34,792 bases of DNA from IMG/VR virus record IMGVR_UViG_3300046411_000278, positions 1 to 34,792 of that record. The stretch is one strand, 5' to 3'. A program made the translations under genes and the position numbers. Positions within the stretch are counted from its first letter, which is position 1. Each line of letters begins with the position of its first letter. Positions 2,012 through 21,540 of this stretch are shown in pieces. Below the pieces are notes generated by a model that saw only the letters and a list, made by a program, of their open reading frames with translations, searched no databases and was not told the origin of the DNA. Source of the stretch: a virus.

Positions 2012-2040
2012 ATTATACGACATTTTGTTGATAAAGTCAA
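2012..2040 (-). promoter_or_regulatory. Sigma70-type (early) promoter of gp45
   Basis: On the minus strand TTGACT and TATAAT are separated by exactly 17 bases, 23 bases upstream of the gp45 ATG. Only the last base of the -35 box differs from consensus. It matches three other sites in the window in boxes and spacing. Confidence 0.8.
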
Positions 2041-2444
2041 CAACTTTTTACTCTATTTCTGAGATCACTGCTTGAAAAACGGTGTTCTCTTTTGTTAAAA
2101 AACAACTCAATTCCTCGTTTGGCACATATAGCCCTACCAGTAAATGTTTTGTTTTTGTATTCTTCACCTAAAATCCTAACATCAATATGAAGCATGTTTA
2201 GAATGTCTTCTAAATCTTTTTCTGTTTGATATGGAATTATTTCGTCAACGTACCTGACTGCATTAAGCTGAGTATATCTTTCTACAATAGTTTGTACGGG
2301 TGAGTTCTTGTCTTTGCGATCAAGGCTTGGGTCTACTTGTAGTCCACATATTAAATAGTCGCATTGTTCTTTTGCATCTCTTAACATCTGAATGTGTCCT
2401 GCGTGTAGCAGATCAAATGTACTACATGTAAAGCCTATTTTCAT
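2037..2444 (-). CDS. Cytidylyltransferase-like nucleotidyltransferase (TagD/glycerol-3-phosphate cytidylyltransferase type)
   Basis: This 135-residue protein has the compact size of the HxGH nucleotidyltransferase fold. TFDLLHAGHI (residues 9-18) is the HxGH nucleotide-binding site and SSSDLR near residue 125 is the counterpart of the ISTTxxR motif. Such enzymes transfer CMP or AMP from CTP or ATP to a phosphorylated alcohol or sugar phosphate. The start overlaps the end of the upstream epimerase gene by 4 bases, and a UDP-glucose dehydrogenase-like gene precedes that. The three probably make an activated sugar or polyol for glycan or surface modification. The substrate cannot be read from the sequence. 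One of three HxGH-type nucleotidyltransferases in this window. Confidence 0.8.
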   Translation of the reverse strand: MKIGFTCSTFDLLHAGHIQMLRDAKEQCDYLICGLQVDPSLDRKDKNSPVQTIVERYTQLNAVRYVDEIIPYQTEKDLEDILNMLHIDVRILGEEYKNKTFTGRAICAKRGIELFFNKREHRFSSSDLRNRVKSC

Positions 2445-3154: not shown

Positions 3155-3906
3155 TTATCTTTCCTTATCTCTTTGTTGCTTTGTACAGCAGTTTGTAATG
3201 TAGGTAGTGTAGCGCCAAGAACGTTTGCAGAGTACAGTAATGCTTCCGTATCTTTCGGAAAACATGCTCCACCAAAACCTTTGTCGCCGTCTGGACCAGG
3301 AACATGCATATGACTATGTGTAATCCTTTCGTCCATTCCTACCAATGCCTTAACTTGGTTATAATCTATGCCTGCTGTTTTACATAAATTAAATACTTCA
3401 TTAAAGAAAGCAACTTTAGTTGCTAAAAAACTATTTCTTAAATATTTTGTAAAAATTAATTCTTCTACTGTAGCATATATTGGATCAAAACCTTTACATA
3501 AAATAAACACATCGTTCCAAAATTCTACATTGCCTCCACCAAACAACATTTTGGTTTGATTCTTAAAATCTTGATTAGCATTTGCCGCAGTCAAAAATTC
3601 AGGACTAAATGTTATTTCTTTTCCTTGCGGTAATAAATCTTTACGCCAACCTTCTAAACTTATTGTACTTTTTATTAGTATAGGTTTATCTTTTGGACAT
3701 GCTTTAATAACTGTTTCAACAATAGTCATATTACATGCTCCTGTAACTGTTGCTGGTGTCGGAACACAAACAATATAACCGTCGCTGTCATTATCAATAA
3801 TGTTATCGTTAAATTCAGGATCAACAATTTTTACTTCGTGGTAGTCTTTGAGTACTTCGTATACAGCTTTACCGACAAACCCGTACCCAATTAAAGTTAG
3901 TTTCAT
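3151..3906 (-). CDS. UDP-glucose/GDP-mannose dehydrogenase family protein, short form
   Basis: The protein begins with the dinucleotide-binding motif GYGFVG (residues 7-12). SPEFL (101-105) is the conserved substrate-proximal motif, and GFGGACFPKD (210-219) carries the catalytic cysteine Cys215. The family oxidises the C6 hydroxyl of an NDP-sugar to a uronic acid using NAD. Full-length enzymes are about 390-450 aa, whereas this one stops at 251, shortly after the cysteine motif, so it lacks the C-terminal NDP-sugar domain. It might act on a different substrate or lean on a partner such as the adjoining epimerase. It forms a tight operon with that epimerase and a nucleotidyltransferase. Confidence 0.85.
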   Translation of the reverse strand: MKLTLIGYGFVGKAVYEVLKDYHEVKIVDPEFNDNIIDNDSDGYIVCVPTPATVTGACNMTIVETVIKACPKDKPILIKSTISLEGWRKDLLPQGKEITFSPEFLTAANANQDFKNQTKMLFGGGNVEFWNDVFILCKGFDPIYATVEELIFTKYLRNSFLATKVAFFNEVFNLCKTAGIDYNQVKALVGMDERITHSHMHVPGPDGDKGFGGACFPKDTEALLYSANVLGATLPTLQTAVQSNKEIRKDK

Positions 3907-8297: not shown

Positions 8298-8729
8298 TTA
8301 TCTTGGCGGACAAATCTCAAAACCGTTGATTTGTTTCTTGTATTCATCTGCATAGCCAATGTATATGTACTTAACGCCTTTGGCTTTATAGTATGCACAT
8401 TCGTGGCGTAGACTCTTTAAACCTAAAAATAAATTAGGATTTTTATAATTCCAAGCAAATTGTATTGCTTCTACATTATGTTTATTGAAGTTATGATAAA
8501 AACTAAATGCAACAAGTTTTTTATTACTGTAATATCCAATTATGTCACTTCTTGGAGCACATAAGTCTTCATTAAACAAAGGCATTACACTTTCAAATTG
8601 TTTGTACTTACAATATTGATCGTATATTACTTGTAATTCTTCTACTGGAGGATTTTCAAACAGTACAGCTGATTTAGACATCCTATAGTTTGTTTTAGAT
8701 AAATTTATTCTAGCATATATGTCGCTCAC
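8298..8729 (-). CDS. GNAT-fold protein resembling the C-terminal half of leucyl/arginyl-tRNA-protein transferases (Bpt/ATE1)
   Basis: At 143 aa it is about half a full Bpt (about 240). The stretch from residue 63 onward follows the ATE1/Bpt C-terminal pattern: IIGYYSNKKLVAFSFYH, then IQFAWNYKNPNLFLGLKSLRHE, then AKGVKYIYIGYADEYKKQINGFE, parallel to the family's LG..e.......G..Y.YLGYwi....kmdYK..f.P. Bpt/ATE enzymes attach Leu or Arg to protein N-termini and so mark them for ClpS/ClpAP. This copy lacks the N-terminal Cys-containing domain, so transferase activity is uncertain; a plain acetyltransferase is the alternative. It starts with GTG, overlaps the upstream stop by 3 bases and has an AGGAT site. 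It is the last gene of a late operon. Confidence 0.5.
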   Translation of the reverse strand: MSDIYARINLSKTNYRMSKSAVLFENPPVEELQVIYDQYCKYKQFESVMPLFNEDLCAPRSDIIGYYSNKKLVAFSFYHNFNKHNVEAIQFAWNYKNPNLFLGLKSLRHECAYYKAKGVKYIYIGYADEYKKQINGFEICPPR

Positions 8730-9223
8730 CGATCCTGCACCTCTTTCTTATATTCCTTCGCCCAATTCTTGTAATAGTTTTTCTTTTCTAACCAAGCTCT
8801 TGCTGTATTTAACTTTTCTTTTTCTTGTATAAGAACTAATCCGTAAGTGCCGTGGTTCAATTTTATTCCTTCTACAACTTCAGGATCATCTGGGTGATCC
8901 TCGAGTGCAACAAATCCACGTTCATCTAACATAGATTTAGTATCGTCTATAATTTTACTTAATTCTTCTGGAGTAATACGACTTGGATTAAAACCTAATA
9001 CAACTACTTCTTTACCTTTAGGCCAGTGATATGTGTAATTTTCTATTTCGGCACTGATCCAAAGTTTTATTTCAAATGTATTATCAAGCCAATGTGTTAG
9101 AACAGATTTATCTAACCAAGCCTTCTTTGCATAAGGACATGGAGGTAGGTTGTTAAAAATTTTTGATGGTTTGCTTAAAAAGTTTTGTATCCAATCATCT
9201 ATGGATGATTCGAAGGTCTGCAT
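8726..9223 (-). CDS. Protein of unknown function (165 aa)
   Basis: The N-terminal part has LPPCPYAKKAW at about residues 26-36, reminiscent of the CPFA/CPYA motif of DUF1415-type proteins. The middle reads KGKEVVVLGFNPSRITPEELSKIIDDTK, a strand followed by a helix. The C-terminus (residues 130-165) is basic and Trp/Tyr/Lys-rich. No signal peptide or membrane segment. It lies between a structural-looking gene and the aminoacyl-transferase-like gene, overlapping the latter by 4 bases. The single proline-flanked cysteine could be catalytic, but I can only call it unknown. Confidence 0.7.
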   Translation of the reverse strand: MQTFESSIDDWIQNFLSKPSKIFNNLPPCPYAKKAWLDKSVLTHWLDNTFEIKLWISAEIENYTYHWPKGKEVVVLGFNPSRITPEELSKIIDDTKSMLDERGFVALEDHPDDPEVVEGIKLNHGTYGLVLIQEKEKLNTARAWLEKKNYYKNWAKEYKKEVQDR

Positions 9224-9225
9224 TA

Positions 9226-10029
9226 CTACATCTTAACGCAGTTGTCTACAGTCTTGCCGCCTTTTTTCTTAGTACCCATACGTTTGTAGCCCTTCCAGCA
9301 TACTTTACCGTCAACACCCTTTTGCTTTTCTTCTGGTAGTGTTGTGTAACTTGGGTTACCGCAGTCTGAACATAGACCTTTTGCTTCGTCTAGTTTTGAT
9401 TGCAAATAATCTACATAAGATTCTTCATTAGATTTTCTAGGTTGTGTTTTATCTTTGTATTCATATCTCTTGTCACCAGCTCTCCAACGTTGATATGCAG
9501 GCGTATTAGCTTTTTCGTCTGCTTTACTAATCTGCATTTTTTCTGCTGGCTTTTTATCTTCTTCTTTAATTTTACCATATGTTATACACGGGTCTTCCCC
9601 ACAACCACAGTTTTTCTTTTTACCTTCCTCAACTTTTTTAGTCTTTGGATTGTCGTGGCTCCAACCTTTTTTTGCTAGATCTTTATGTTCTTTATCTGTA
9701 TTAGCTTTTTTAGATTTGCCATCTTTATACATTGTGTGTGGTTCAAACTTATCATCTTTTTTTGACTCAGATACTTCGTCAAATTTCATTTCATAATCCA
9801 TATGATGATAAACACTGCTTAAATAATCTGCGGCTTTAGTGATCTTAGATTGTACCCAACCTTCAAGTCCTTCACGTTCTTCAACACCTTTTAACATTTC
9901 ATGCATTTTGATTGCATATTTTGCAACCTTGTATAATTCTGCACGTGCCATTTGAACTTCGTGATCTGATTCGACTTTGAAAGCCATATCAGCTAAACCG
10001 TTTTCTTTTAAGTCTTTTTCTCTCATCAT
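9226..10029 (-). CDS. Virion-associated modular protein (267 aa), cysteine-rich C-terminal modules
   Basis: Residues 20-85 form a helical domain (ARAELYKVAKYAIKMHEM, WVQSKITKAADYLSSVYH) that I recall as common in structural-region proteins of marine T4-like phages. A lysine-rich linker follows. Then come short modules: KKGWSHDNPKTKKVEEGKKK with CGCGEDPC (141-148), CSDC (220-223), and a basic Cys tail with CWKGYKRMGTKKKGG then NCVKM (244-267). The cysteines could bind a metal. A GATAAATA late box sits 15 bases upstream of its AAGGAT site and ATG, so late expression is expected. Best guess is an internal-head or decoration protein. Other genes nearby carry comparable basic Cys modules. Confidence 0.65.
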   Translation of the reverse strand: MMREKDLKENGLADMAFKVESDHEVQMARAELYKVAKYAIKMHEMLKGVEEREGLEGWVQSKITKAADYLSSVYHHMDYEMKFDEVSESKKDDKFEPHTMYKDGKSKKANTDKEHKDLAKKGWSHDNPKTKKVEEGKKKNCGCGEDPCITYGKIKEEDKKPAEKMQISKADEKANTPAYQRWRAGDKRYEYKDKTQPRKSNEESYVDYLQSKLDEAKGLCSDCGNPSYTTLPEEKQKGVDGKVCWKGYKRMGTKKKGGKTVDNCVKM

Positions 10030-10044
10030 ATTATCCTTATAGTG

Positions 10045-10052
10045 TATTTATC
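10045..10052 (-). promoter_or_regulatory. T4-type late promoter box (GATAAATA)
   Basis: Seven of eight bases match TATAAATA, the T4 late box, on the minus strand 15 bases before the ATG of 9226..10029, followed by an AAGGAT ribosome-binding site. The position is as expected for a short late leader. Confidence 0.65.
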
Positions 10053-10575
10053 TTTTAATAGTCTTGCCACCCATTAAACTGTTACTAATGTCTAAAGCGT
10101 TTTTTGCTGTTCCATCTGGGTTTTTCTTTTGCGGCGCTTTTGGAACACCATTTTTATCACGTTTTCTGTGACCATATGCTTGTTTTGGGTTAGCAACAGA
10201 TGCTATATTCCCTGCACTTGTAGCACCTGCTGTAGCAGTTTCGCCTATAGTTCCTAATGAATTAAACTCCATAGGAACTTCTGAAGTACCAACTATATTT
10301 TGATACATCTGTAGTAGCTCTTTCGTGGGTCCTTGATCTGATAAACGTTTGTTAAATTCTGTTGCCGCATTATCAGCAACTTCGTCGCCATGTTTATTTG
10401 CTAGTTTATTATATATCTGTGCACCTGGATCAGTAGTGTCCCATTTAGCAGTTTTACTAGGGTTTAATAAAAGTTCTGCTACAGCCCAGCCTAATGTAGG
10501 AAGCATAGCCATCAATGCTGGCGCCAACTCATTGACTGGTTTTTTAATATTATTTGTAAGTTCTCGTATTAACAT
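10048..10575 (-). CDS. Unknown protein, possible capsid-internal or virion protein (175 aa)
   Basis: The N-terminus MLIRELTNN resembles the short targeting peptide seen on neighbouring genes, with an I-x-E site at residues 3-5 where a gp21-type prohead protease could cut. One hydrophobic stretch follows (LAPALMAMLPTLGWAVAELLL, about residues 17-37). The rest is helical, then a Gly/Ala-rich and basic tail (GHRKRDKNGVPKAPQKKNPDG, about 130-152). An AAGG site lies 13 bases ahead of the ATG. Its place between other cargo-like genes suggests a head-associated role, but no domain is recognised. Confidence 0.6.
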   Translation of the reverse strand: MLIRELTNNIKKPVNELAPALMAMLPTLGWAVAELLLNPSKTAKWDTTDPGAQIYNKLANKHGDEVADNAATEFNKRLSDQGPTKELLQMYQNIVGTSEVPMEFNSLGTIGETATAGATSAGNIASVANPKQAYGHRKRDKNGVPKAPQKKNPDGTAKNALDISNSLMGGKTIKR

Positions 10576-10592
10576 GCTAATATTTACCTTTT

Positions 10593-12839
10593 TTACTTGT
10601 TGACTGACACGCCTGTCTTGCTATTTGCTGATATCTTGGTATCAGGACTCATTTGATAGTCTATTGTGTAACCTTTATCCTTATCAATACTTACGCCCAT
10701 GTCTCCGGAACTTACAGAAGTACGATCACCACTTATAAGTTTACCGCTCATGTCATACGTTGCTTTTTGATCTATGCTTGCTCCACTATTTTGTCCTGTA
10801 AAGTCTACTGTTACAGTTTTCTTTGCAATATCGTGTGTTTGCTGTAGACCTTTTATTTTAGGTGTTTCGTATTTTAATAGCTTGCCATCTGGTGAAAATG
10901 TATATGTACCTGCTCCACTTGATACAGTACGGTTACTGTTTTTATCTGTTTGTGTGCTTGTACCATTGTCGTTTGTGCCGTCTGGAGTATCAGCACCTGG
11001 TGCTGGTGGAGGAGTTGGCATTTTTATTATGTCTATATTCTTAGGAGCCATTTGTCCAGGGCCTATATCATTACCTGTGTCCATTGTAGCACTCATTGTT
11101 GTCATTGAATTAAGTTTATCTAATGGAGTATCTATTTTTGCCATGTCTCCTGCTTGAACTGCTCCGGCAATAGTTCCTAATAGTGTTGCTACTAACACAA
11201 GATTTTTTCCTGTCTTAGGAATTTTTTTAAGCATTGGCTTTACTTTTCCTAATAAATTTTTAGGAAGTTTTTTTAAACTATCTGCTATGCCTTCTTGTAA
11301 TTGTTGAGGAGTACTTTCATTCAAAATTTGTAAAAATTCTTTTTCAGTATATAAAGATTCTGATTTCTTTTTACCTGACTTCATATTAGCACACCAGTGA
11401 TACATTTTTGCACGTTCACCTGATGCTTTTTTTGCTTTTGATCTTAAACTTGTTACTGATCCGTTACAACTAGCACCCGATTTCTTTACTCTACCTGGAC
11501 GGCTTTTGCCTTTTTTCTTTCCATCAGCAAAGTTTTCCTTCATCATTCCTAAAACAAATTCAAGAGTGTAAGGAAGTTTAGCAACACTAATCGATTCCAT
11601 TTGTAATAATTTAACTACATCATATCTATGATGTCCATTGATAATTCTATTTGTATTATCAACTACTATAGGTGTATATTCTCCACCTGCAATTTTCTTT
11701 AGTTGTTTAGTATAGTTTTCTTTAAGCCTTTCTTTTTGTACAGGTACAATACTTTCTACTTTTATACTAATAATTTTATGTGGGATATATTCTAAATGTT
11801 TTTTACGTATTTGTGGAAGTTGATTCCTTGTAAAACCTTCTGACTTTTTCTTTTTAGGTAATCCTTTATGTTTTGTAGAGGCAAACTTCTTAACATCAGA
11901 CTTTTTCATATCCTTTGCAACGTCTCCTGCTTCACCACCCTTAGGCATATCACCTTTTTGCATTGCTCTAACAATACCAAAAAACTGTTGTTGTTTTTTG
12001 CTTACTGCTTTTTCTTCAACAGGCTCTGACATATGTTTTTTAATTGCTTTTGCAGTTCTTTCAAACTTATGATCTTTGTGCTTAAAGCCTTCGCCACCAG
12101 CCGCTTCCCAACTTGCAATGTTTTTGCCAAAATCGTCAATTAGTATGTTTGGTGTTCCGTCTTGATTCGTTGCAAACTTTGCTTTATCATGTGTAATGAT
12201 AACATTCTCTGGAGGAAAGAAGTCTAAATTCTTTTTAATCCATTCACGCTTGTGTGGTTCTGAATTAGGGTCATTTGGTAAAGGGCTACTTAAAATAGTA
12301 TAGCTACCTTTTACTTTTTTAATTACACCTAGTAAGTTTTTTGCTTGTGGTAGCAAAGGAAGGTTCAAAAAGAAATCATCTGTATCTCTAATTTTTTGTA
12401 GTTCTGGTTCAATGTCTTTGACATTACGCCAGTCTTTACCTATTAACTTTGTCCATTCTCCAAAAAAGTCTGCTAGTACGCCATCCATGTCAACAAATAC
12501 TTTACTTGTACTTGCTAATTCACCCAAATTCTCTGCCATCTTAGCATAGTATAACATACTTTCATCGGTGTTGTCAACCGATTCTGCAAGGCCTAGATTG
12601 AATAATACATTGGTTTTTGAGCCTTTTACCTTCTTTGATAGTGTAGGTGGGCGTCCATCTTTGTCTACTTTGTTACCAAACTTAGCGGCTTGCTTCTTAA
12701 TAGCATCTACACCAACATCTGCTGTAGTGTTGACACCTTTTACAACACGGCCACCGTGCTCTTGTAAACGCAAATAGTGTTTAAAACTGCCTCGCTTAGG
12801 GACTTTATTTTCAATGTCTCTAAAACTATGAAACTTCAT
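10593..12839 (-). CDS. 748-aa multidomain protein: HAD nucleotidase-like, DUF3008-like, ParB/Srx-like, basic Cys module, membrane/β-rich tail
   Basis: Modules in order: N-terminal peptide MKFHSFRDIE with LQE at 25-27; HAD domain 112-250 resembling 5'(3')-deoxyribonucleotidases (DMDGVLADF 117-125, LSSP 183-186, IDDF 234-237); residues 280-330 with KKQQQFFGIVRAMQKG and FASTKHKGLP, like DUF3008; a ParB/sulfiredoxin-type domain 355-422 with the NGHHRYD motif (401-407); a basic module 442-492 with two cysteines and MYHWCANMKSG; a hydrophobic segment 546-563; a Pro/Thr linker; and a repetitive beta-rich tail 640-748. Several L-x-E sites fall between modules (LAE 84-86, LNE 506-508, LQE 514-516), so prohead-protease cutting into separate parts is possible. 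ParB/Srx-like domains can bind DNA or hydrolyse NTPs. I infer a capsid-packaged composite protein; activities untested. Confidence 0.75.
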   Translation of the reverse strand: MKFHSFRDIENKVPKRGSFKHYLRLQEHGGRVVKGVNTTADVGVDAIKKQAAKFGNKVDKDGRPPTLSKKVKGSKTNVLFNLGLAESVDNTDESMLYYAKMAENLGELASTSKVFVDMDGVLADFFGEWTKLIGKDWRNVKDIEPELQKIRDTDDFFLNLPLLPQAKNLLGVIKKVKGSYTILSSPLPNDPNSEPHKREWIKKNLDFFPPENVIITHDKAKFATNQDGTPNILIDDFGKNIASWEAAGGEGFKHKDHKFERTAKAIKKHMSEPVEEKAVSKKQQQFFGIVRAMQKGDMPKGGEAGDVAKDMKKSDVKKFASTKHKGLPKKKKSEGFTRNQLPQIRKKHLEYIPHKIISIKVESIVPVQKERLKENYTKQLKKIAGGEYTPIVVDNTNRIINGHHRYDVVKLLQMESISVAKLPYTLEFVLGMMKENFADGKKKGKSRPGRVKKSGASCNGSVTSLRSKAKKASGERAKMYHWCANMKSGKKKSESLYTEKEFLQILNESTPQQLQEGIADSLKKLPKNLLGKVKPMLKKIPKTGKNLVLVATLLGTIAGAVQAGDMAKIDTPLDKLNSMTTMSATMDTGNDIGPGQMAPKNIDIIKMPTPPPAPGADTPDGTNDNGTSTQTDKNSNRTVSSGAGTYTFSPDGKLLKYETPKIKGLQQTHDIAKKTVTVDFTGQNSGASIDQKATYDMSGKLISGDRTSVSSGDMGVSIDKDKGYTIDYQMSPDTKISANSKTGVSVNK

Positions 12840-13045
12840 TTTTTACGTCCTCTAAAACCACCACCAGTCATGTGTGGTAAACTAAACCAAAGTTTGAACC
12901 AGTCATTATCACCTGGCTTAATCTTTTTTTCTCTTTCTATCTTACGTTTTTCACTAGCAGTCTTACTAATGTTTTCTAATGTGTAAGGTGTGTATCCTTT
13001 ATATTCATTGACACCTGCAAGTTCTTTTAAACGTTCAATGTCCAT
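12836..13045 (-). CDS. Small basic protein with capsid-targeting-like N-terminus (69 aa)
   Basis: It begins MDIERLKELAGV, matching the ELDRMKELAGA segment inside the 14270..15241 protein, which points to a shared peptide used by head proteins. The LKE at residues 6-8 would be a possible prohead-protease site. The remainder is Lys/Arg-rich and ends GGGFRGRKK, compatible with DNA contact. An AGAAGG site lies upstream, within a 1-base gap after the 13047 gene, and its stop overlaps the next start by 4 bases. No enzymatic motif. Confidence 0.6.
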   Translation of the reverse strand: MDIERLKELAGVNEYKGYTPYTLENISKTASEKRKIEREKKIKPGDNDWFKLWFSLPHMTGGGFRGRKK

Positions 13046-13046
13046 A

Positions 13047-13946
13047 TTAGTCAGCCCTTCTGATTTGATATCTTATTCCTAATCTGTCAAACAATTTACC
13101 TGCCGTAGCAATGTTTGTAAGGGCTTGTTTTATTTGTGGCAAGTAATCATCGTTTTGTTCTACTTTATTCATAAACTTTTGTGCTTCGGCTGGTCTAATA
13201 AAAATTAATTTGCCACTCCATGCCGCACCTTTTCTATAAAAACTTAAAAAATGTTCTTTGCCATCAGCACGAGATGCTACCCAATCTAATACTTTAAGTT
13301 TATTAGGGTCTTGTGCCTTGATTGAGGAGTGATCTGTTTTCTTAAATAACTCAAGTTCAGCTATGTTATCTTCTTCAACAGCGTCAACACCCATTATACC
13401 TTGTAATCTTTTGAACATTTCTTCTGCGTGTGGTAACGCTTTTTGAGTGACTCCTTTTTTAAATGACTCTAAATCATTATCCACGACTGTTTGGCGCATC
13501 TTACTTGCACTCATTCCTGTTGCACCTTCAGCATCAGGATCACGATTTAATTGTACGTAATTTATTTTATCGAAGTTATAATTGTGTAATTCTTTTTCAA
13601 CACCGTTGTATTGTTGTAATATTTTTAGTAATTTAGGTTCACCTTCTAAGAAAGTTACTTCGGTGTAACCCATTTTAAATAATCTGTCAGCGGCAGTTAA
13701 TACTGTTTTAGCTAATCCTATACTTACGCCATCAAAGCTCTTACGTGCCCAGTCTAGTTTTTCGTCTGGCGATAAAGGATCTGTAGGTAATTTACTTGCT
13801 CTATCAGTTAAAAATAAAAAAGAATCGCCTGGAGCTTTTTTAATAGCGTCTACAAGTAATGCATGTCCATTTGTTGCTGGGTTCAGTCTGCCAAGTGCAA
13901 AAGAGGCAACTTTACCTTCAGCTTCATATAGTTGTCTTAGTAGCAT
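13047..13946 (-). CDS. Nucleotidyltransferase with capsid-targeting-like N-terminus (299 aa)
   Basis: GRLNPATNGHALLVDAI (residues 19-35) contains the (H/T)xGH nucleotide-binding site. The second signature is GMSASKMR (144-151), the ISTSxxR counterpart. This places it in the NMN-adenylyltransferase/cytidylyltransferase superfamily. The C-terminal half (about 190-299) contains LDWVASRADGKEHFLSFYRKG and is not recognised. The first ten residues, MLLRQLYEAE, resemble T4 capsid-targeting peptides and offer LYE or EAE for gp21-type cleavage, immediately before the enzymatic domain. I infer a head-packaged enzyme injected with DNA. It could be involved in NAD or nucleotide-sugar chemistry; the substrate is unknown. 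Confidence 0.75.
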   Translation of the reverse strand: MLLRQLYEAEGKVASFALGRLNPATNGHALLVDAIKKAPGDSFLFLTDRASKLPTDPLSPDEKLDWARKSFDGVSIGLAKTVLTAADRLFKMGYTEVTFLEGEPKLLKILQQYNGVEKELHNYNFDKINYVQLNRDPDAEGATGMSASKMRQTVVDNDLESFKKGVTQKALPHAEEMFKRLQGIMGVDAVEEDNIAELELFKKTDHSSIKAQDPNKLKVLDWVASRADGKEHFLSFYRKGAAWSGKLIFIRPAEAQKFMNKVEQNDDYLPQIKQALTNIATAGKLFDRLGIRYQIRRAD

Positions 13947-14268
13947 CTGGTAATTCTTCCTTTGGATTTCTTTCGTGATCTAAGACCTTGTGTGCAAGAT
14001 CTGATTTTTCGGAATTGTTCATTAACTCCTTAGGATGTTTATTGATATCATATTTTAAACAATAATGATTTAAGCATTTATCAATCATAGGCATAATATG
14101 GCCTTGAATTACTTTTTCATTAGTTTCACTTCTCATTTTATCCATACATGGTAGATAATGTTTACGATAAAATCCTTCATCATTCAGCATATGAAAATGC
14201 ACATCGTCAATAACATTAAAAGGCATTGAATCTTGTATTGGGTTATTAAATATTTCTTTTAAAAGCAT
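13924..14268 (-). CDS. Unknown head-region protein (114 aa)
   Basis: The open frame extends to 14325, but the ATG at 14268 is chosen: it follows an AGGA site and starts just after the upstream stop at 14270. The protein begins MLLKEIFNN, another short hydrophobic/acidic peptide with an LKE site. It continues with DVHFHMLNDEGFYRKHYLPCMDKM, a stretch I recall from marine T4-like phages without a function. It has several His and Cys residues (HIMPMIDKCLNHYCLKYD) that could bind metal. Its end overlaps the nucleotidyltransferase start by 23 bases. Confidence 0.6.
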   Translation of the reverse strand: MLLKEIFNNPIQDSMPFNVIDDVHFHMLNDEGFYRKHYLPCMDKMRSETNEKVIQGHIMPMIDKCLNHYCLKYDINKHPKELMNNSEKSDLAHKVLDHERNPKEELPDATKTTI

Positions 14269-14269
14269 C

Positions 14270-15241
14270 TTACCACTTCCTACATGACCAGTAACGTGCC
14301 TTTGTTCTTGGTCCAGGATTATCACAATTATGTCTAGCCCGGAAAGAACGTCTACGTGCAGGGTTTGATTTCTTGATACTCATTGATTTGCCTTTTACAC
14401 TTGAGCCGCCATGTCCAAAGTTTACTTTTTTAATGTTTTTAGTTTTTGGATCTCTAACATATACCTTGAACTTCTTAACATCACCTTGCATTGGCTTGCC
14501 AAGTTTAACTTTACGTCCTTGATACTCTGCTTCATCTATAGGATCATCGTCATCGTTGTACCACATCTCACCGTATGCTTCGTAAAATGCATCATCGTCA
14601 TCATATGTTTCGTCAATACTTGCACCAGCAAGTTCTTTCATTCTATCAAGTTCTTGTGTGCCTTCATCGACACCAAAACCTACAATGTCATCGCCTAAGA
14701 TCTTTGCCGCTTCTTTACAGTTGTCTTCATCAATTGCTGATACACCCATAATTTTTCTAAATTCATTTTCCATAGCATTTGTGATAGGCAACATTTTTGC
14801 AAATTTTTCATCATCATTAAAAAGTTCATCTTCGGCTTCGCTTCTGTCGCCACCAAGCATTTGTACTGCTTTTTCAAGTTCGTTGTCTTCAACACCGTCT
14901 GTTAAAATGCCTGAGTCTATATAACCTCTTAACATTCCTGCTGGTAGTTCGTCACCGTTGTTTCCTCGATACTTGCTGTATTTGTTATACCAAGCCTCTA
15001 ATGCTGACTTGTCTGCTTCATTGACATTTTCGTCACCTGGTGAATATGCTTCTTTTGTCTTTTCAGCTTTACTGTATTTGTCTTTCAAACGTCCTAGTTC
15101 TTCTTGACTTGCACCTTCGCGTCCTGCTTTAGCGGCTTTTTTCATATATTCTTTACCGTGCTTTTTAACACCAGTATAATATTGCAAGCCTGATTCGCTT
15201 GTTTCAGCTTCTTTAAGGTAATCTATAAATGTCTTTGTCAT
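14270..15241 (-). CDS. Probable internal head/prohead-core protein with capsid-targeting sequence (323 aa)
   Basis: The N-terminus MTKTFIDYLKEAETSES closely parallels the T4 internal-protein targeting peptide (MKTYQEFIAEA): a hydrophobic helix ending in L-x-E then Ala, which gp21 protease cuts. A basic region follows (KKHGKEYMKKAAKAGRE), then a long acidic middle (DDDDAFYEAYGEMWYNDDDDP) with an ELDRMKELAGA repeat of the neighbour's N-terminus. The C-terminus is basic (RRRSFRARHNCDNPGPRTKA, then RYWSCRKW) with a Cys pair, likely DNA- or metal-binding. The acidic/basic layout fits a scaffold-core or internal protein. It is first in a late operon behind GATAAATA at 15273..15280. Confidence 0.7.
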   Translation of the reverse strand: MTKTFIDYLKEAETSESGLQYYTGVKKHGKEYMKKAAKAGREGASQEELGRLKDKYSKAEKTKEAYSPGDENVNEADKSALEAWYNKYSKYRGNNGDELPAGMLRGYIDSGILTDGVEDNELEKAVQMLGGDRSEAEDELFNDDEKFAKMLPITNAMENEFRKIMGVSAIDEDNCKEAAKILGDDIVGFGVDEGTQELDRMKELAGASIDETYDDDDAFYEAYGEMWYNDDDDPIDEAEYQGRKVKLGKPMQGDVKKFKVYVRDPKTKNIKKVNFGHGGSSVKGKSMSIKKSNPARRRSFRARHNCDNPGPRTKARYWSCRKW

Positions 15242-15272
15242 GTGTCAACACCCTTTATATTATAATTTAAAG

Positions 15273-15280
15273 TATTTATC
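15273..15280 (-). promoter_or_regulatory. T4-type late promoter box (GATAAATA) of the cargo operon
   Basis: Minus-strand GATAAATA, 31 bases upstream of the ATG of 14270..15241, in the divergent gap 15242-15338 that also carries the speD upstream region on the other strand. Confidence 0.65.
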
Positions 15281-15310
15281 AATATTAGTCAAGCTCTATG
15301 GGTGCAGTGG

Positions 15311-15318
15311 ACTAAATA
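15311..15318 (+). promoter_or_regulatory. Candidate late promoter box (ACTAAATA) of speD
   Basis: Plus-strand ACTAAATA lies 20 bases before the speD ATG, with an AAGGA site in between. It departs from TATAAATA in its first two bases, as does the phoH box (GCTAAATA), so a looser NCTAAATA form may be used on the plus strand. Confidence 0.45.
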
Positions 15319-15338
15319 GAAACCAAAAAGGAACGGCT

Positions 15339-15713
15339 ATGTTGAAGCATAAACACATGATAATTAGAGCTGAAGTAAGCAATCCACCACAATGCGAGCA
15401 AACTATAGTCGATTGGGCTGGTAATTTAATAAGAGATATAGACATGAAAATAATGATGGGGCCGTACGCCAAGTATTGTGAAATGCCAGGCAATAGAGGG
15501 TTTACTTGTGTTACTATTATTGAAACAAGTCACATAGCAATACATGTTTGGGACGAAGTAAAGCCTGCATTAGTACAACTAGATGTATATACGTGTGGTG
15601 AATTAGATAAACGTAAAGTATTTGATGCACTAGAACGCTGGGATCCAGTTAAAATTGAATACAAATATTTAGATAGAGAAAAAGAACTTACTTTAGTTGA
15701 CTTTCATTCTTAA
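15339..15713 (+). CDS. speD: S-adenosylmethionine decarboxylase-like (SpeD) pyruvoyl proenzyme
   Basis: A 124-residue class 1B SpeD-type protein. The family makes decarboxylated AdoMet for spermidine synthesis after self-cleavage to form a pyruvoyl group. ETSHIAIHVWDE then LDVYTCG holds the key residues: Ser64 (cleavage and pyruvoyl source), His69 (processing) and Cys86 (proton donor). All three are present. Bacterial relatives normally read ESH at the cleavage point, whereas here the residue before Ser is Thr. The ATG at 15339 is chosen for its AAGGA site and because the protein family begins near here, though the frame extends to 15240. It is one of two plus-strand genes, and its 3' end overlaps the opposing gene by 21 bases. 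Phage SpeD relatives may have other decarboxylase substrates, so the exact amine is open. Confidence 0.85.
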   Translation: MLKHKHMIIRAEVSNPPQCEQTIVDWAGNLIRDIDMKIMMGPYAKYCEMPGNRGFTCVTIIETSHIAIHVWDEVKPALVQLDVYTCGELDKRKVFDALERWDPVKIEYKYLDREKELTLVDFHS

Positions 15714-17126
15714 TTTAGAACGTGGTCCTTCTTTCATACTAGAACTCACAGCAACTTCAACTTGGCCTGTTGCCATTTCTCTGTTTGGCCATGTAATAAC
15801 TGAATTCATTGCGTTTGCATCTGATATGTTTTGTGGTGCCATTTTGTTAGATAATTTAATAAAATTTTGTTGCAGTGTTTCACGTACTACAGGAGCAAAG
15901 TTAGGTAATGCATTATCTTTGTTTACTACTTTAGAAGTAAGTGCCTCAAAAGCATAGAATATATTTTTGTATTTTTGTACAGGATTGTCTTTATCTTCTA
16001 AAAATTTAGCAAAGTTGTTAACTTTGAGTTTATCTAAAATAGTATCTAAGTATTTAGGAAATGTCTTGCCAGCAATAGCTTCGCTAATTTCAGACTCTGT
16101 GATTTCTCTGTCCATATATAGTCTAAAACCTTGTGCCTCCATTTTGTAAAAGAAGTTTGCATTTAGAAATGCACTATTTTTTGTAGTTGTTTTATCTTGT
16201 AATTCTAAAAATGCCACTGCTCTTGGATTCTTTTCTTTAAGTTCTTTCGGTACTTCGAATTGTCCCATACTAAAGGCCGCACCTTTTCCTGATTTACCAC
16301 CTTTTACAGAAATCCAAATTTTATTTCCTGATACAGGATTTTCAAAGCCTGCTACTGCTCCTTCTGCATCTGCTAATCTTGCATTTTTTGCAGTTGGGAA
16401 TACCATCTTCATTTGATCGAAACTGGTTAAACCAACATGGTCAAAGAATGCTTGTTCAACATCGCCTGTAAATGTTGCCATTCCTTTAAGCATCATAAGC
16501 GGACCAAGATATTCACCTGCATCATCTCTAAACGCGGCAAATTCACCTGAGCTTAATTCACTTAGATCAAAAGTATTATCTTTATTCGCAATTTGTGTAG
16601 CCGCATCGATAACCTTTCGTCCAATTTCAGTTGCTTGTAATTTTTGATTACCTTTTATTGCTTGGAGTAAAGATTCCGCAGTATATTCTGCACCACCTGC
16701 ATCAATACCAATATCTGCTGGTTTTAAACTTGCGGCTTCTTTTCCGCCTGCTACAAATTTACTGCCTCCAAATTCTGCACCTTTAATTAAAGGCGATACA
16801 CTATTTTTTGTATTGATAGGTATTGGAGTTTGTTCAGTATCTTTTACATCGTATCCATATAATGTAAACGGAACTGTTTTATTTTTGCCAGCCGCCCAAG
16901 TTGTAAATACTTTTACATTGTCATACTCTGTAGGTGGATCAGATTGTAATGCAATCTTAGGTGGAATTATAATTTCTTTGCCATCTTTTGTTTTAAAAGG
17001 AGTTGGGTTGTTAATAAAATTTAAAAATGTTTCTTTACGATCAGGTTTTCTATCCTTCATAAGCTCGTCACCTGTTAGATAAGGGGACGCCTCAGTCAGT
17101 TGACTTCTAAATTGGAAATAACGCAT
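15693..17126 (-). CDS. Unknown 477-aa protein with capsid-targeting-like N-terminus
   Basis: It starts MRYFQFRSQLTEASPYL: a short amphipathic helix ending LTE then Ala, like T4 internal-protein targeting peptides. In the core, about residues 245-290, comes NARLADAEGAVAGFENP followed by KIWISVKGGKSGKGAAFS. The acidic residue, then a strand with S-x-K-G-G, is reminiscent of PD-(D/E)xK nuclease-like folds seen in other phage proteins, but I cannot confirm a catalytic set. No membrane segment. A GAGG site precedes the ATG, which overlaps the upstream stop by 1 base. Likely packaged or head-associated; function unknown. Confidence 0.65.
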   Translation of the reverse strand: MRYFQFRSQLTEASPYLTGDELMKDRKPDRKETFLNFINNPTPFKTKDGKEIIIPPKIALQSDPPTEYDNVKVFTTWAAGKNKTVPFTLYGYDVKDTEQTPIPINTKNSVSPLIKGAEFGGSKFVAGGKEAASLKPADIGIDAGGAEYTAESLLQAIKGNQKLQATEIGRKVIDAATQIANKDNTFDLSELSSGEFAAFRDDAGEYLGPLMMLKGMATFTGDVEQAFFDHVGLTSFDQMKMVFPTAKNARLADAEGAVAGFENPVSGNKIWISVKGGKSGKGAAFSMGQFEVPKELKEKNPRAVAFLELQDKTTTKNSAFLNANFFYKMEAQGFRLYMDREITESEISEAIAGKTFPKYLDTILDKLKVNNFAKFLEDKDNPVQKYKNIFYAFEALTSKVVNKDNALPNFAPVVRETLQQNFIKLSNKMAPQNISDANAMNSVITWPNREMATGQVEVAVSSSMKEGPRSKLRMKVN

Positions 17127-17392
17127 TAAACACTAACCTCAATATCAAAATTATCATACCCTAGATCAAAAAGTTTGTTTGCTACATTGTTTGCAACTTC
17201 ATCTGATTCTTCTTCATCTAGTTGAACGTGTGTTTCAACTGTAAGAACAGTTTGTCCTGATTGTGATTCTGTCAAACTATAATTAGTTTCACTTTCCATT
17301 AATGCAGTAGATGCACTTGTTGCAACTTCTGATACAACAATATCGTCAATTTCTTCTTTGTTATCAAAAATAATGTTAATAAAGTTTTCCAT
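17126..17392 (-). CDS. Small acidic protein of unknown function (88 aa)
   Basis: Strongly acidic and Ser/Thr-rich (NKEEIDDIVVSEVATSAS, VQLDEEESDEVANNVANKL), with no basic cluster, cysteine or membrane segment. An AGGAAG site sits ahead of its ATG. It is sandwiched between a virion-type protein and the 477-aa protein in the late block. Small acidic proteins in this position can be prohead-core or assembly factors, but nothing here proves that. Confidence 0.6.
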   Translation of the reverse strand: MENFINIIFDNKEEIDDIVVSEVATSASTALMESETNYSLTESQSGQTVLTVETHVQLDEEESDEVANNVANKLFDLGYDNFDIEVSV

Positions 17393-17400
17393 ATTACTTC

Positions 17401-17742
17401 CTAATGATTAAGTCTAACACTATTTACAGTACCATCTGTGTAAACTAGTTTTGCTCTAATGAAAACAAAGTTACCTGTAAAGTTAACATATTTGACTTCT
17501 GTTTGATTAGCAACGGTTATAGTATCTACGTCAAACCAGTCAGCATCTGCTGGTGTAGTTGCTAATGTTGCTTGTATAGTGATCGAACCTGTAAGACCTA
17601 CGTAATCATACTGTACAGTATGAACACCATCTGATCTTCCATAATATCCGTCACCCTTAAAGTTACTTCCGGTTACAGTTTCAGTCGTACTGTCTCCTGG
17701 ATGTGTGTTGGCTGATAAAATTATTTCGCTTGTACTGGGCAT
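17401..17742 (-). CDS. Putative virion structural protein (113 aa)
   Basis: Beta-rich, Thr/Gly/Asp-rich sequence with GSITIQATLATTPADADWFDV and VNFTGNFVFIRAKLVYTDG, a pattern shared by small fibre- or baseplate-associated proteins of marine T4-like phages. The frame continues upstream to 17775; MPSTSE at 17742 is preferred because a CATAAATA box ends only 5 bases before it and the family begins there. No ribosome-binding site is in range of either start, so the exact start is unsure. Confidence 0.6.
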   Translation of the reverse strand: MPSTSEIILSANTHPGDSTTETVTGSNFKGDGYYGRSDGVHTVQYDYVGLTGSITIQATLATTPADADWFDVDTITVANQTEVKYVNFTGNFVFIRAKLVYTDGTVNSVRLNH

Positions 17743-17746
17743 AATA

Positions 17747-18433
17747 CTATTTATGCAAATCCTTTTGTGAAACATATTTTATAATACGTCGGATTTGTCC
17801 TCCTAAAGCTATTTTTGCTAACATTAGATATCGTTCATTTTTAGCATAAAAGTAAAAACCTTCGGCAAAATGGTTGTTACGTACAACACGTTTTGCAACA
17901 TTGCCTATTCTAAATCCGTCTGGATTGTTTTCACAATAGTCTGCAAAATTAGGATCAACTTTCTTCCCTAATATTGCTTTGAATTCCCATTCAACGTCAC
18001 CGTCAATTATTTTAGTGTTTGCATTATCTATAAGATAGTTGAAAATTTCATCATTTTCAGGTTCATGCCATTGTACTGCACTGACTTGTGTTTGCAATTT
18101 ATGTAACCAATCTGGTTCGTTTGAATACATATCTAAGTTGTATCCTTCGCAACGCACCATAGCATTACTTTTATTTTTTTCTAGTGCATTGTACACAACG
18201 CAGGCATCCATAAATGTTTCTAAATCAATAGTCATATTTTTCCTACGTGCTAAATGGTTAAAAGGACATGATATAGGCAACTCTGACTCTGCTTCTCTTT
18301 GCATAGCATCTAGTTTTGATTTAACATATCCTAGATTCAATCCGCGAAACATAGATGCAATAGTGCTCTTTACACGTAGCTTGTATAGATACTTGTTATA
18401 AAATAACTTAGTTGTGTAATACTTTTGTAACAT
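17747..18433 (-). CDS. Unknown protein co-transcribed with clpA (228 aa)
   Basis: No recognised family. It begins with a Tyr/Lys-rich stretch (LQKYYTTKLFYNKYLYKL), has LETFMDACVVYNALEK and YNLDMYSNEPDWLHKLQ mid-protein, and ends NNHFAEGFYFYAKNERYLMLAKI then a basic tail. No membrane segment, signal peptide or nucleotide-binding motif. It overlaps the clpA end by 26 bases with an AAAAGG site, so it should be translated with ClpA from the clpA promoter. The location makes it a candidate ClpA adaptor or substrate selector; that is inference from position only. Confidence 0.7.
   Translation of the reverse strand: MLQKYYTTKLFYNKYLYKLRVKSTIASMFRGLNLGYVKSKLDAMQREAESELPISCPFNHLARRKNMTIDLETFMDACVVYNALEKNKSNAMVRCEGYNLDMYSNEPDWLHKLQTQVSAVQWHEPENDEIFNYLIDNANTKIIDGDVEWEFKAILGKKVDPNFADYCENNPDGFRIGNVAKRVVRNNHFAEGFYFYAKNERYLMLAKIALGGQIRRIIKYVSQKDLHK
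17748..17755 (-). promoter_or_regulatory. Possible late promoter box (CATAAATA) very close to a start codon
   Basis: It matches the late box in seven of eight bases but lies only 5 bases before the ATG at 17742, so transcription would begin at or near the start codon. Either the mRNA is nearly leaderless or the match is chance. Confidence 0.4.
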
Positions 18434-20666
18434 CTTTTACCTTTTCAGTAATAGGTTTTAGATGCAATTTATTGTCAGCAACATCAATTTTTAAAGTACC
18501 ACCGTCTTTTAGATCGCCGAATAAAAGCATCTTACTTAGGGGTCGTTTAATTTGTTTGTCGATATATCTGTGCATAGGTCTTGCACCCATCTTATCATCA
18601 AAACCATTTTCTACAAGATGGTCTAATGCATCGTCACTAATTTCGCAAACTACATTTTTATCATCAAGCATGTTTTTAAGTTCAAGCAAGAACTTACCAA
18701 CAATTTTTAGCATAATAGGTTTTTCAAGTTTACCAAACGTAACTACACCATCAAGTCTATTTCTAAATTCTGGAGCAAAGAAACGTTTAAATTCTTCGTC
18801 ACCATAATCACCAGCTAAATCTTGACTAAATCCTATAGTGTTTTTCTCAGCTTGTTCTGCACCTAAGTTAGTTGTAAGGATTAAGATACAATTACGTGCA
18901 TCTGCTTCTTTACCGTCACTTCCGGTAATCTTACCATTGTCCATAATTTGCAATAAAATTTGTGCAATGTCTGGGTGTGCTTTTTCAATTTCATCAAGTA
19001 ATAAAACACAATTAGGATGTTCTTGTAGTTGATTAATTAACTGTCCTGAATGTTCGTCGTGGCCAACATACCCTGGAGGAGAACCAATTAACTTACTTAC
19101 ACTATGTTTTTCTTGATATTCTGACATATCAAAACGTGCAAGGTGTATGCTTAGATTCTTTGCAAGTTGTTTAGCAAGTTCAGTCTTACCAACACCTGTT
19201 GGGCCCATGAATACAAACGATCCAATTGGTTTTTCTTCTGATTTAAGTCCTGCTTGTGCAACAAGTATCTTGTCAACAATTTCTTCAATTGCATTGTCTT
19301 GTCCATACACATTAAGTTTAAGGTTCTTGTCAAGACTTGCTAGATTATTAGTTTCTTTTTGTTGTATTTGTTCTGGAGGAAGATTTACAAACTTAGCAAG
19401 TTCAAATTTAATCTCTTCAGGACCAACAACACGATCTCCTGTAACATTGTTTACTTTAAACCGTGAACATGCTAAGTCGATTAAGTCAATTGCTTTGTCA
19501 GGTAACTTTTTATCAGTAATGTATTTTACTGAAAGTTTAACTGCTTCATCAATTGCTTCTTGTGTAATAGTAGTTGCATGGAATTCTTCGTAATACTTTT
19601 TAATACCATGTAGAATATCTGTTGTTGTTTTCTTATCAGGTTCGTCAACACTTACACGTTGGAACCTACGCATTAATGCTCTATCTTTTTCAAAATATTT
19701 TCTATATTCGTCCCAAGTAGTAGAAGCTACAACTTTAATATCACCTTTACCTAAGGCAGGTTTCAGCATATTTGCTAAATCATTAGAGCTATTGCTACCA
19801 CCAGCACCAGCACCATTCATCATGTGTGCTTCGTCAATGAATACAATCGTTTTGCCTTGACGTTTGATTGCGGCCATAACTAATTTGAAACGTTCTTCAA
19901 AGTCTCCTCGGTATTTACTACCTGCCAACATAGCACCAATGTCTAAATTGTATACTGAATACTCTTCAAGGAATGTAGGAACATCTTTGTTAACAATTCT
20001 GTATGCAAGTCCTTCTGCAATAGCAGTTTTACCAACACCTGGATCACCAACTAATAGGACATTATTTTTTTGTCTACGTCCTAATGACAAGCAAATGCTT
20101 TCTAGTTCTTCTGTACGTCCAATCACAGGATCAATTTTACCATCAACAACTTCTTGGTTCAAGTTAGAAGTAAATGCTTTCAAAGCTCGTTGTGCATGTC
20201 CTTGTAATTCTTCATCTTCTACATTTGAAACAAATTCGTTGTTTATATAATTGCTGAATGCATCTTTATCTACACCTGCTTTTGTTACTTGGTAAGTTGA
20301 ATATGATTTCTTTTCGTTAAGCAATGATAAAAATACATCACAAATATCAATGTGCTGACGCCCGCTAAACAATACTTGTGTAAATGCTCTATTCATAACA
20401 CGTTCTACAGTTTGTGTTTTCTTAGGCTTATATTTTGTGCCTTCAGGAACTTTAATATCGTCTAGTTTAGTTTGAAGATACTGCAATAGCTCGTTTTGCA
20501 ATGGTTGCACTTCAATACCAAATCCTGTCAAGATGTTAGTAAAGTTTTCTGTGCATAGCATAGCAAACAATAGATGCTCTAATGTCACATATTCGTGATT
20601 TAGTCTCTTAGCATCTTTAATTGCTTTATCAAATACAACCTGTAATTCTTCAGATGGTTCAACCAT
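18408..20666 (-). CDS. clpA: ClpA-type AAA+ unfoldase (ATP-dependent Clp protease ATP-binding subunit)
   Basis: At 752 aa it is near E. coli ClpA (758). An N-domain of Clp-N repeats spans residues 1-145 (NHEYVTLEHLLFAML, then RQHIDICDVFLSLL); in ClpA this domain binds ClpS. D1 has Walker A GDPGVGKT (207-214), Walker B VFIDEAH (275-281) and pore loop KYRGDFEER. D2 has Walker A GPTGVGKT (488-495), Walker B VLLLDEIEKAH (554-564) and pore loop SPPGYVGHDE. There is no ClpB-type middle coiled coil. IGF at 611-613 in the D2 loop (ClpA usually IGL, ClpX IGF) is the ClpP-docking tripeptide. It should unfold proteins for host ClpP; no ClpP or ClpS gene is visible here. A perfect sigma70 promoter (20700..20728) lies upstream, so it is likely made early. 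Confidence 0.95.
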   Translation of the reverse strand: MVEPSEELQVVFDKAIKDAKRLNHEYVTLEHLLFAMLCTENFTNILTGFGIEVQPLQNELLQYLQTKLDDIKVPEGTKYKPKKTQTVERVMNRAFTQVLFSGRQHIDICDVFLSLLNEKKSYSTYQVTKAGVDKDAFSNYINNEFVSNVEDEELQGHAQRALKAFTSNLNQEVVDGKIDPVIGRTEELESICLSLGRRQKNNVLLVGDPGVGKTAIAEGLAYRIVNKDVPTFLEEYSVYNLDIGAMLAGSKYRGDFEERFKLVMAAIKRQGKTIVFIDEAHMMNGAGAGGSNSSNDLANMLKPALGKGDIKVVASTTWDEYRKYFEKDRALMRRFQRVSVDEPDKKTTTDILHGIKKYYEEFHATTITQEAIDEAVKLSVKYITDKKLPDKAIDLIDLACSRFKVNNVTGDRVVGPEEIKFELAKFVNLPPEQIQQKETNNLASLDKNLKLNVYGQDNAIEEIVDKILVAQAGLKSEEKPIGSFVFMGPTGVGKTELAKQLAKNLSIHLARFDMSEYQEKHSVSKLIGSPPGYVGHDEHSGQLINQLQEHPNCVLLLDEIEKAHPDIAQILLQIMDNGKITGSDGKEADARNCILILTTNLGAEQAEKNTIGFSQDLAGDYGDEEFKRFFAPEFRNRLDGVVTFGKLEKPIMLKIVGKFLLELKNMLDDKNVVCEISDDALDHLVENGFDDKMGARPMHRYIDKQIKRPLSKMLLFGDLKDGGTLKIDVADNKLHLKPITEKVKDVTKVLHN

Positions 20667-20699: not shown

Positions 20700-20728
20700 A
20701 TTATACGTTATCATACTAATAATGTCAA
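20700..20728 (-). promoter_or_regulatory. Consensus sigma70 (early) promoter of clpA
   Basis: Minus-strand TTGACA, 17-base spacer, TATAAT, 33 bases upstream of the clpA ATG, which has an AAGGAAT site. The -35 box overlaps the last codons of dnaJ. It makes clpA the start of its own transcript, separate from the dnaJ-lysis block. Confidence 0.88.
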
Positions 20729-21540
20729 CTATATCTTTTACCAATTTGTTCAATTGCATTTTTATCTGCATCTGAAATACCTGTCGGTGTTTGACCAACA
20801 ATTCTGACTAATATATTGCCTGGATTGCCTGATCTATTTGGTAAGCCTTTGCCTGTTATTTTTAAAACTGTTCCAGGTTGTGTTCCTCCAGGTATATTTA
20901 GGTTTACTTTAGCACCACCTGGAACACTAATATTAAGAACAGTTCCTGTAATAAGTTTTAAAACACTAATTCTCTTATTAGTAATTAAATCTAATCCGTT
21001 GATCTCATACTCATTTGTGGATTGTATTACAATTTGTACAAATAAATCTCCTGGAGGTATTTGTTTAATATCATGTTGACCCATTCCTGAGTAACGGACT
21101 TTATCACCATTTCTTACACCTACAGGTATTTTGATATCAACTGTTTGCTCCATACCATTGTTTAATCTATATGAAGCAATTACACTTTTACCAGTATATA
21201 CTTCTGCAATATTAATATTACATCCTATTGTAATATCTTGATTCCGCATTTGTTGTCTTGCGCCAAACCCAAATTGACCCATTAGATCGTTTATATCAAA
21301 GCCGCCTTGGAATCCGCCTTGATTAAAATGTTGCGAGTTAAACTGAGGTTGTGGATTATCGTATTGTTGTCTTTTTTGAGGATCTTTTAATGTGCTATAT
21401 GCTTCGTTAATTTGTTTGAACTTTTCGTCACTACCGCCATTACGGTCAGGGTGGTGTTGCATACTTAATTTTTTGTATGCTTTCTTAAGATCTGTTTCAG
21501 AAGCGTTTCGCTCAACACCTAGTACGTTATAGTAATCCAT
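20725..21540 (-). CDS. DnaJ/CbpA-like co-chaperone (class B, no zinc finger)
   Basis: The J domain is residues 1-65 (DYYNVLGVERNASETDLKKAYK, then HHPDRN with HPD at 30-32). A Gly/Phe-rich linker follows (FNQGGFQGGFDINDLMGQFGFG). The C-terminal peptide-binding part (about 100-271) has IPVGVRNGDKVRYSGMG and GNILVRI, as in CbpA and DnaJB types. At 271 aa it is slightly shorter than CbpA (306), and the CxxCxGxG zinc finger is absent. The HPD should stimulate a host Hsp70. No clear ribosome-binding site precedes the ATG, and no obvious promoter lies in the 17-base gap to the upstream gene, so it probably shares the late lysis-region transcript. Confidence 0.93.
   Translation of the reverse strand: MDYYNVLGVERNASETDLKKAYKKLSMQHHPDRNGGSDEKFKQINEAYSTLKDPQKRQQYDNPQPQFNSQHFNQGGFQGGFDINDLMGQFGFGARQQMRNQDITIGCNINIAEVYTGKSVIASYRLNNGMEQTVDIKIPVGVRNGDKVRYSGMGQHDIKQIPPGDLFVQIVIQSTNEYEINGLDLITNKRISVLKLITGTVLNISVPGGAKVNLNIPGGTQPGTVLKITGKGLPNRSGNPGNILVRIVGQTPTGISDADKNAIEQIGKRYS

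Follow-up and report, generated by a model that had tools for sequence, protein, structure and literature searches.

Single-domain ATE-like, predicted transferase genes of uncultured large phages are paired with a partner gene, O8, and assort separately from the Clp genes

Introduction

Aminoacyl-tRNA-dependent transferases of the GNAT fold are known from natural-product pathways, where VlmA, DhpH, PacB, Orf11 and Sba18 are FemX-like and carry two GNAT domains (reviewed in PMC12945691). Proteins of the DUF6875 family have been described as haem-binding and linked to Trp oxidation, and one of them, ZigI, has a haem-binding motif and is needed for a natural-product pathway step assigned as hydroxylation (a 2026 paper, PMC13307353). 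ClpA, ClpS, ClpP and DnaJ have already been reported in jumbo phages (PMC7824862, PMC6102473). Here we analyse a 34.8-kb IMG/VR fragment (IMGVR_UViG_3300046411_000278; the whole stretch is hereafter the window), which encodes on its minus strand a 143-aa ATE_C-like protein of a single GNAT-fold domain with a GTG start (8298..8729), an overlapping 165-aa partner named O8 (8726..9223) and, as a separate system, a 752-aa ClpA-type double-ring AAA+ unfoldase (18408..20666). A preliminary description had combined the small protein and ClpA into a phage-run N-degron pathway; the ATE relatedness and the intact ClpA stand, the link between them is not supported, and the analysis corrects a tempting but weak story.

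Like ATE1/Bpt (PF04377), the phage protein has a GNAT-type ATE_C domain by sequence and fold, but it has only 143 aa, is without the Cys-cluster ATE_N/substrate domain, has a shorter acceptor loop between YLG and YK, and its gene is bound to O8 and amidinotransferase genes and is almost phage-only. With the VlmA/DhpH/PacB/Orf11/Sba18 group it shares the fold (Sba18, 9wqy) and a place in a multi-enzyme cassette, whereas the phage protein is a single ATE-type domain that occurs with a pentein amidinotransferase and in phages. A-PGS/L-PGS (the MprF catalytic domain) supplies the best fold match (4v35), yet those enzymes are two-domain, use a lipid acceptor and are usually membrane-linked. O8 has the N-terminal CP[FY]A region of the DUF6875 haem proteins (PMC13307353), but scores below the cut-off, is shorter and phage-encoded, and its haem is putative. 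The cassette's pentein belongs to the same family as the glycine amidinotransferase-like penteins of phage CP220 and Synechococcus phage S-SCSM2R, although these lie among radical SAM/glycosyltransferase or 2OG-oxygenase genes and no ATE-like gene is annotated there. As in Atu_ph07 (PMC6102473, PMC7824862), ClpA stands beside DnaJ and ClpS/ClpP occur in relatives of the window phage; unlike them, Atu_ph07 gave no ATE-like gene by tblastn, and its Clp set was already known.

A single-domain ATE_C-like protein

The 143-aa open reading frame is a real gene, because its GTG start is kept in 8/8 sequences compared and its dN/dS against relatives is 0.04-0.10, a sign of purifying selection. Searched against Pfam, the window protein matched ATE_C at E=4.4e-5 and just missed the curated cut-off (24.5 bits against 25), while 37 of 42 family members matched ATE_C (PF04377; best E 1.2e-7) and only one of the 42 matched Acetyltransf_1 (E=0.094). 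When the family profile was compared with proteins of solved structure (PDB), the best sequence match was a yeast-type ATE1 (E 0.0021); the ATE signature FxW...LGxxS...E is retained in the alignment to ATE1, which stops at YLG.

The AlphaFold2 model (pLDDT 95.0, pTM 0.88) points the same way. Its best Foldseek matches in the PDB were A-PGS (4v35, E 3.7e-6) and ATE1 (7wfx, E 4.8e-6), the ATE1 set comprising yeast and human structures (7wfx, 7tif, 8tzv); L-PGS, MprF and the streptothricin-type aminoacyl-tRNA-dependent peptide synthases Sba18/Sbb17 also ranked ahead of most acetyltransferases, of which few were matched (WecD 2fs5, VipF 7wx6). The resemblance to Bpt/ATE1 noticed in the preliminary description is therefore borne out by sequence and by fold, the top matches being aminoacyl-tRNA transferases and not an ordinary acetyltransferase. 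Because the ATE_C matches, the fold and the ATE1 alignment agree, an ATE-type aminoacyl-tRNA-dependent transferase is well supported as a prediction at the level of fold, and use of tRNA by the 143-aa protein is predicted from its sequence and model.

No match to the ATE_N domain with its Cys cluster was found in any of the 42 members. The only members with an N-terminal extension (L076 6388-7065 and L077 6473-7150, both minus strand) have about 70 additional residues without the Cys cluster, a region that by eye resembles a remnant of ATE_N.

O8 is the near-constant partner

Gene neighbourhoods were compared across 46 non-redundant loci, in which the O8, amidinotransferase and DUF6614 families were recognised with hidden Markov models built in this analysis; nearly all related records are fragments and gene calls in them are mechanical. 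In the window, the stop of O8 overlaps the ATE-like start by 4 bp, and across the loci O8 abuts or overlaps the ATE-like gene in 40/46, lying upstream on the same strand in 33, downstream on the same strand in 2 and convergently in 5. Six loci have no abutting O8: three are at or near contig edges, in L075 O8 is one gene away, in L154 it is about 1.5 kb away, and only in L134 was no O8 seen near the ATE-like gene (1 of 46 loci). That the adjacency survives re-ordering is strong evidence that the two genes share a function.

O8 carries the motifs CP[YF]A[KR]xA ... DHPxxxE, and the C, D, H, E, N, Y and W residues that it keeps invariant are of the kind expected in an enzyme. It is weakly DUF6875/DUF1415-like: 22/41 O8 members, the window's own not among them, matched DUF6875 at E<0.1 (best E 2.8e-4), and the best single score printed for this family (PF21780) was 21.2 bits against a curated cut-off of 24.5. 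Its AlphaFold2 model (pLDDT 93.3) gave no match in a PDB fold search at E<=1e-3. By analogy with the DUF6875 proteins, O8 is perhaps a haem enzyme.

Two other roles were considered and set aside. O8 could have been the missing ATE_N half of the transferase, since its CP[FY]A region looks ATE_N-like by eye, yet Pfam gives DUF6875/DUF1415 and no ATE_N. A toxin-antitoxin pair with a TacT-like GNAT toxin would be another reading of two overlapping genes, but PADLOC gave no match, other phages carry O8 on its own, and the two genes sit within enzyme cassettes. In L006/L010, where the pair lies in the region from GroES to gp44, the ATE-like protein shares about 92% identity with that of the window and O8 only 39-41%, so that the two genes differ in history or rate.

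Amidinotransferase and DUF6614 genes in the cassette

Within 2.5 kb of the ATE-like gene (n = 46 loci), a pentein amidinotransferase was found in 24/46, DUF6614 in 31/46 and either in 36/46. The order of genes varies, as in O8-AT-ATE-DUF6614 (L075) and O8-ATE-AT-DUF6614-AT (L137), where AT is the amidinotransferase; gene ends mostly abut or overlap, and in L126 the amidinotransferase is fused to DUF6614. Two close kin of the window (L006/L090) have the pair elsewhere, and there an amidinotransferase gene follows it immediately downstream. The pentein motifs RD, GHxD and HCxT, containing the catalytic Asp, His and Cys, are conserved in at least 85% of 17 aligned sequences, and the match to Pfam ADI is weak. 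This organization suggests that the O8-ATE cassette is a phage-run modification or biosynthesis pathway rather than a protein-degradation tag.

In Campylobacter phage CP220 (L161, 71962-80969), several radical SAM genes and genes resembling sugar transferases surround the pentein amidinotransferase, a further phage modification cluster yet to be characterised.

Distribution of the ATE-like family

One pattern scan of IMG/VR recovered 321 viral relatives of the ATE-like protein, including contigs of 328-352 kb; a wider first alignment of the family was too diverse for pattern scanning, and such scans can miss distant relatives. With two divergent members as queries, tblastn returned nothing from 50,697 phage records, and BFVD contributed a single entry, an 'uncharacterized protein' from an uncultured phage with 48% identity. 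Of two pattern scans of GTDB genomes, the first returned nothing and the second one contig, the short patterns again being liable to miss distant relatives. This contig (L254, CAJADG010000031.1) is a 6.3-kb piece of a 'Bacteroidetes' metagenome-assembled genome carrying an O8-ATE-amidinotransferase operon, and is most likely a mis-binned phage contig; a cellular origin of the family was accordingly not retained. No paper on a phage aminoacyl-tRNA-protein transferase turned up in the open-access literature that we searched, although one may still exist.

The Clp genes and their separation from the transferase

The window carries replication genes of T4 type, which their translations show to be gp43-, gp44- and gp45-like, together with DnaJ, ClpA, GroES, PhoH, ThyX and SpeD. 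The DNA polymerase encoded there most resembles those of Phosso (50%; 469 kb) and Atu_ph07 (45%; 490 kb), two very large phages in which DnaJ and ClpA also stay together; we therefore read the window as part of a marine jumbo phage related to these two.

A full two-ring ClpA with both Walker sets and an IGF tripeptide had been proposed, and motif and Pfam analyses confirmed it: Walker A lies at residues 207-214 and 488-495, Walker B-type motifs at 275-281 and 555-561 and IGF at 611-613, and the domains Clp_N, AAA, AAA_lid_9, AAA_2 and ClpB_D2-small supply the N-domain and two AAA+ modules that, with the IGF/IGL loop, characterise ClpA. The protein is intact and complete and looks functional. 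It matches PHROG_4871 at E=3.5e-247 and scores 869 bits against the NCBIfam ClpA model, below the 993-bit equivalog cut-off, and thus appears by sequence to be a divergent phage branch. With 126 phage records matching it at E<=1e-60, ClpA is ordinary in jumbo phages and not an unusual find. DnaJ (20725..21540, minus strand; Pfam DnaJ and DnaJ_C) is encoded upstream of clpA; the two are adjacent in Atu_ph07, and in Phosso the order is DnaJ-peptide deformylase-ClpA. The Phosso deformylase (L085, 6938-7456) is an N-terminal processing enzyme within the Clp block.

ClpS is encoded in 8/30 and ClpP in 7/12 records of relatives of the window phage, these being counts within the relatives and not the window fragment itself. 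One relative (G005), with a ClpA 94% identical to that of the window, encodes both, and because relatives encode their own ClpP, their Clp machine would not need that of the host. Aligned to E. coli ClpS, the G005 protein keeps the Asn-Asp, Met and His positions that we take, from general knowledge, to form the N-degron pocket, whose residues thus appear largely kept in the relatives. We place ClpA in a proteostasis set of jumbo phages that is conserved and separate from the transferase, made up of DnaJ, ClpA, ClpS, ClpP and Hsp20, and a phage-run ClpAPS machine can be tested independently, since close relatives encode all three components. In four records (L162, L163, L164 and L256, from G004, G005, G002 and G033, respectively), clpS lies in a block of hsp20, clpS, a haem-oxygenase-like gene and a bilin-reductase-like gene, the last carrying AFHDFSASSGG (identified by eye in translations); the block is reminiscent of oceanic-phage bilin pathways.

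The transferase and the Clp genes assort separately, because the O8-ATE pair is variably present while DnaJ-ClpA is retained. Among close kin of the window, L006, L010, L017 and L027 have the pair elsewhere, near gp44 and GroES, and in L031 and several of L042-L050 the DnaJ-ClpA genes and the 228-aa gene that follows them are kept while the pair is absent from its usual site. An unrelated gene of about 200 aa (MDDSAEDFVWHDID...YIVRPCVNMIGLGLG...HFWCEWFEG) occupies the slot in L031 (16323-17000) and L050 (19410-20070), which suggests an exchangeable cargo site. Among 40 records sampled by DNA polymerase, 7 carried an ATE-like gene, many of the rest being short fragments; a 236-kb record (G033) encodes ClpS and DnaJ-ClpA, the latter read from translations, and no ATE-like gene. 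In none of the loci examined was the ATE-like gene found near clpA or clpS. The proposed pathway link between transferase and ClpA is thus not supported by location or co-distribution: the constant partner of the ATE-like gene is O8, often with the amidinotransferase or DUF6614, and the gene is absent from relatives that bear ClpA and ClpS.

Interpretation and alternatives

We give about an even chance to the reading that the 143-aa protein is a phage-restricted, single-domain aminoacyl-tRNA-dependent GNAT-fold transferase, nearest to the ATE1/Bpt and A-PGS families, which acts together with O8 and, in the majority of related phages, also with a pentein amidinotransferase and/or a DUF6614 protein. 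The scheme that follows is inferred in its use of tRNA, its acceptor, its chemistry, its sequence of steps and its product: the transferase most likely removes an amino acid from a tRNA charged by the host and links it to the amine of an acceptor, after which O8 and, where present, the amidinotransferase would alter the amino acid or the conjugate, the pentein step transferring a guanidine from arginine and the O8 step perhaps involving haem chemistry. Several observations weigh against this reading. The protein is without the second domain found in ATE1, MprF and FemX-type enzymes, and as a single 143-aa domain it departs from the two-GNAT-domain architecture of FemX-like biosynthetic enzymes; the DUF6875 link of O8 is below the curated cut-off and its haem role putative; O8 homologues occur without an adjoining ATE-like gene in HMO-2011, cyanophages and CRP-810; and the window, itself a fragment, and its nearest sublineage have no amidinotransferase or DUF6614 beside the pair.

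More tentatively, hundreds of uncultured large phages may carry a compact aminoacyl-tRNA-fuelled pathway, composed of the ATE-type transferase, O8 as a possible haem enzyme, the pentein amidinotransferase, DUF6614 and sometimes a radical SAM protein, that would yield, in the infected cell, a product or modification bearing guanidine, with host charged tRNAs as building blocks. If aminoacyl-tRNA is indeed used, these phages would draw charged tRNA away from translation to feed a modification pathway that they run themselves. We met no description of such a phage pathway in the open-access literature that we searched, and the family, large in metagenomes and unmatched among the phage records searched by tblastn, was revealed only by structure comparison and gene context.

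A phage N-degron pathway, in which the ATE-like protein would add a destabilising residue to N-termini, phage ClpS would recognise it and ClpA with phage or host ClpP would degrade the substrate, is an unlikely account that nonetheless keeps a modest probability, because ClpA, ClpS and ClpP are encoded in all four ATE-bearing records above 328 kb (4/4, at distant loci). ATE family membership, a 182-kb ATE-bearing record with ClpA and ClpS, and the Asn-Asp, Met and His residues of the E. coli pocket kept in a close relative's ClpS are consistent with it. This co-presence is weak evidence, however, because the records were chosen via the transferase and Clp genes seem common in the group; distances between ATE-like and Clp genes run from about 9 kb to hundreds of kb (13 kb to clpS in G013) and the genes were never found adjacent. 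ClpA and ClpS moreover occur without an ATE-like gene both in G033 and in Atu_ph07 (Clp set, PMC6102473; no tblastn match), the gene is present in only 7 of the 40 polymerase-sampled records (many of them fragments), ATE_N is missing, and the tight partner is O8 and not a Clp gene. That near-constant partnership, with overlapping genes and with just the pair at the site in the window's sublineage, would also suit a protein-modification unit in which O8, or a protein presented by O8, is the acceptor and the other genes are frequent optional companions; the enzyme-typical invariant residues of O8 and its occurrence alone in other phages make this quite unlikely.

The two remaining alternatives concern the donor and the acceptor. 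That the protein is an ordinary acetyl-CoA GNAT acetyltransferase merely resembling ATE would fit its single compact domain and the presence of WecD (2fs5) and VipF (7wx6) among its fold matches, but we hold it improbable, given 37/42 members matching ATE_C against one matching Acetyltransf_1 (E=0.094), aminoacyl-tRNA transferases as top fold matches and the retained signature FxW...LGxxS...E. Aminoacylation of a lipid or cell-surface molecule, as performed by A-PGS/L-PGS, appears very improbable: A-PGS 4v35 is the best single fold match and sugar-nucleotide genes lie a few kb off in the window (2037-3906), yet the protein has no membrane domain and is half as large as the catalytic domain of A-PGS, and its sequence profiles favour ATE_C.

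Neighbouring genes

The gene following clpA (u17747, 17747..18433, minus strand) encodes a 228-aa protein and overlaps the clpA 3' end by 26 bp. Searches gave no Pfam family, one isolated weak match in PHROGs and no match among isolates. Relatives were found in 25 viral loci, with clpA alongside across the clade, and remotely similar genes (17-33% identity, sharing an L-x-Y...Y motif) follow clpA in L255, L258, L260 and L261; no position-equivalent u17747-like gene is present after clpA in L257 and L259. Tied by position to clpA in several lineages, some of them distant, u17747, which the preliminary description had proposed as an adaptor, is a plausible candidate ClpA partner. The next gene, o17401 (17401..17775, minus strand), encodes a 124-aa protein that matches PHROG_13657 (E=8.9e-13) and, more weakly, the virion structural PHROG_14467, and synteny places it in a conserved block, DnaJ-ClpA-u17747-o17401. 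The window has one copy of the T4 late motif TATAAATA, where chance alone predicts 5.4, so that late-promoter motifs gave no signal of expression timing. The sugar-nucleotide genes at 2037-3906, between the sliding clamp and the DNA polymerase, are cytidylyltransferase-like, epimerase-like and UDP-sugar-dehydrogenase-like.

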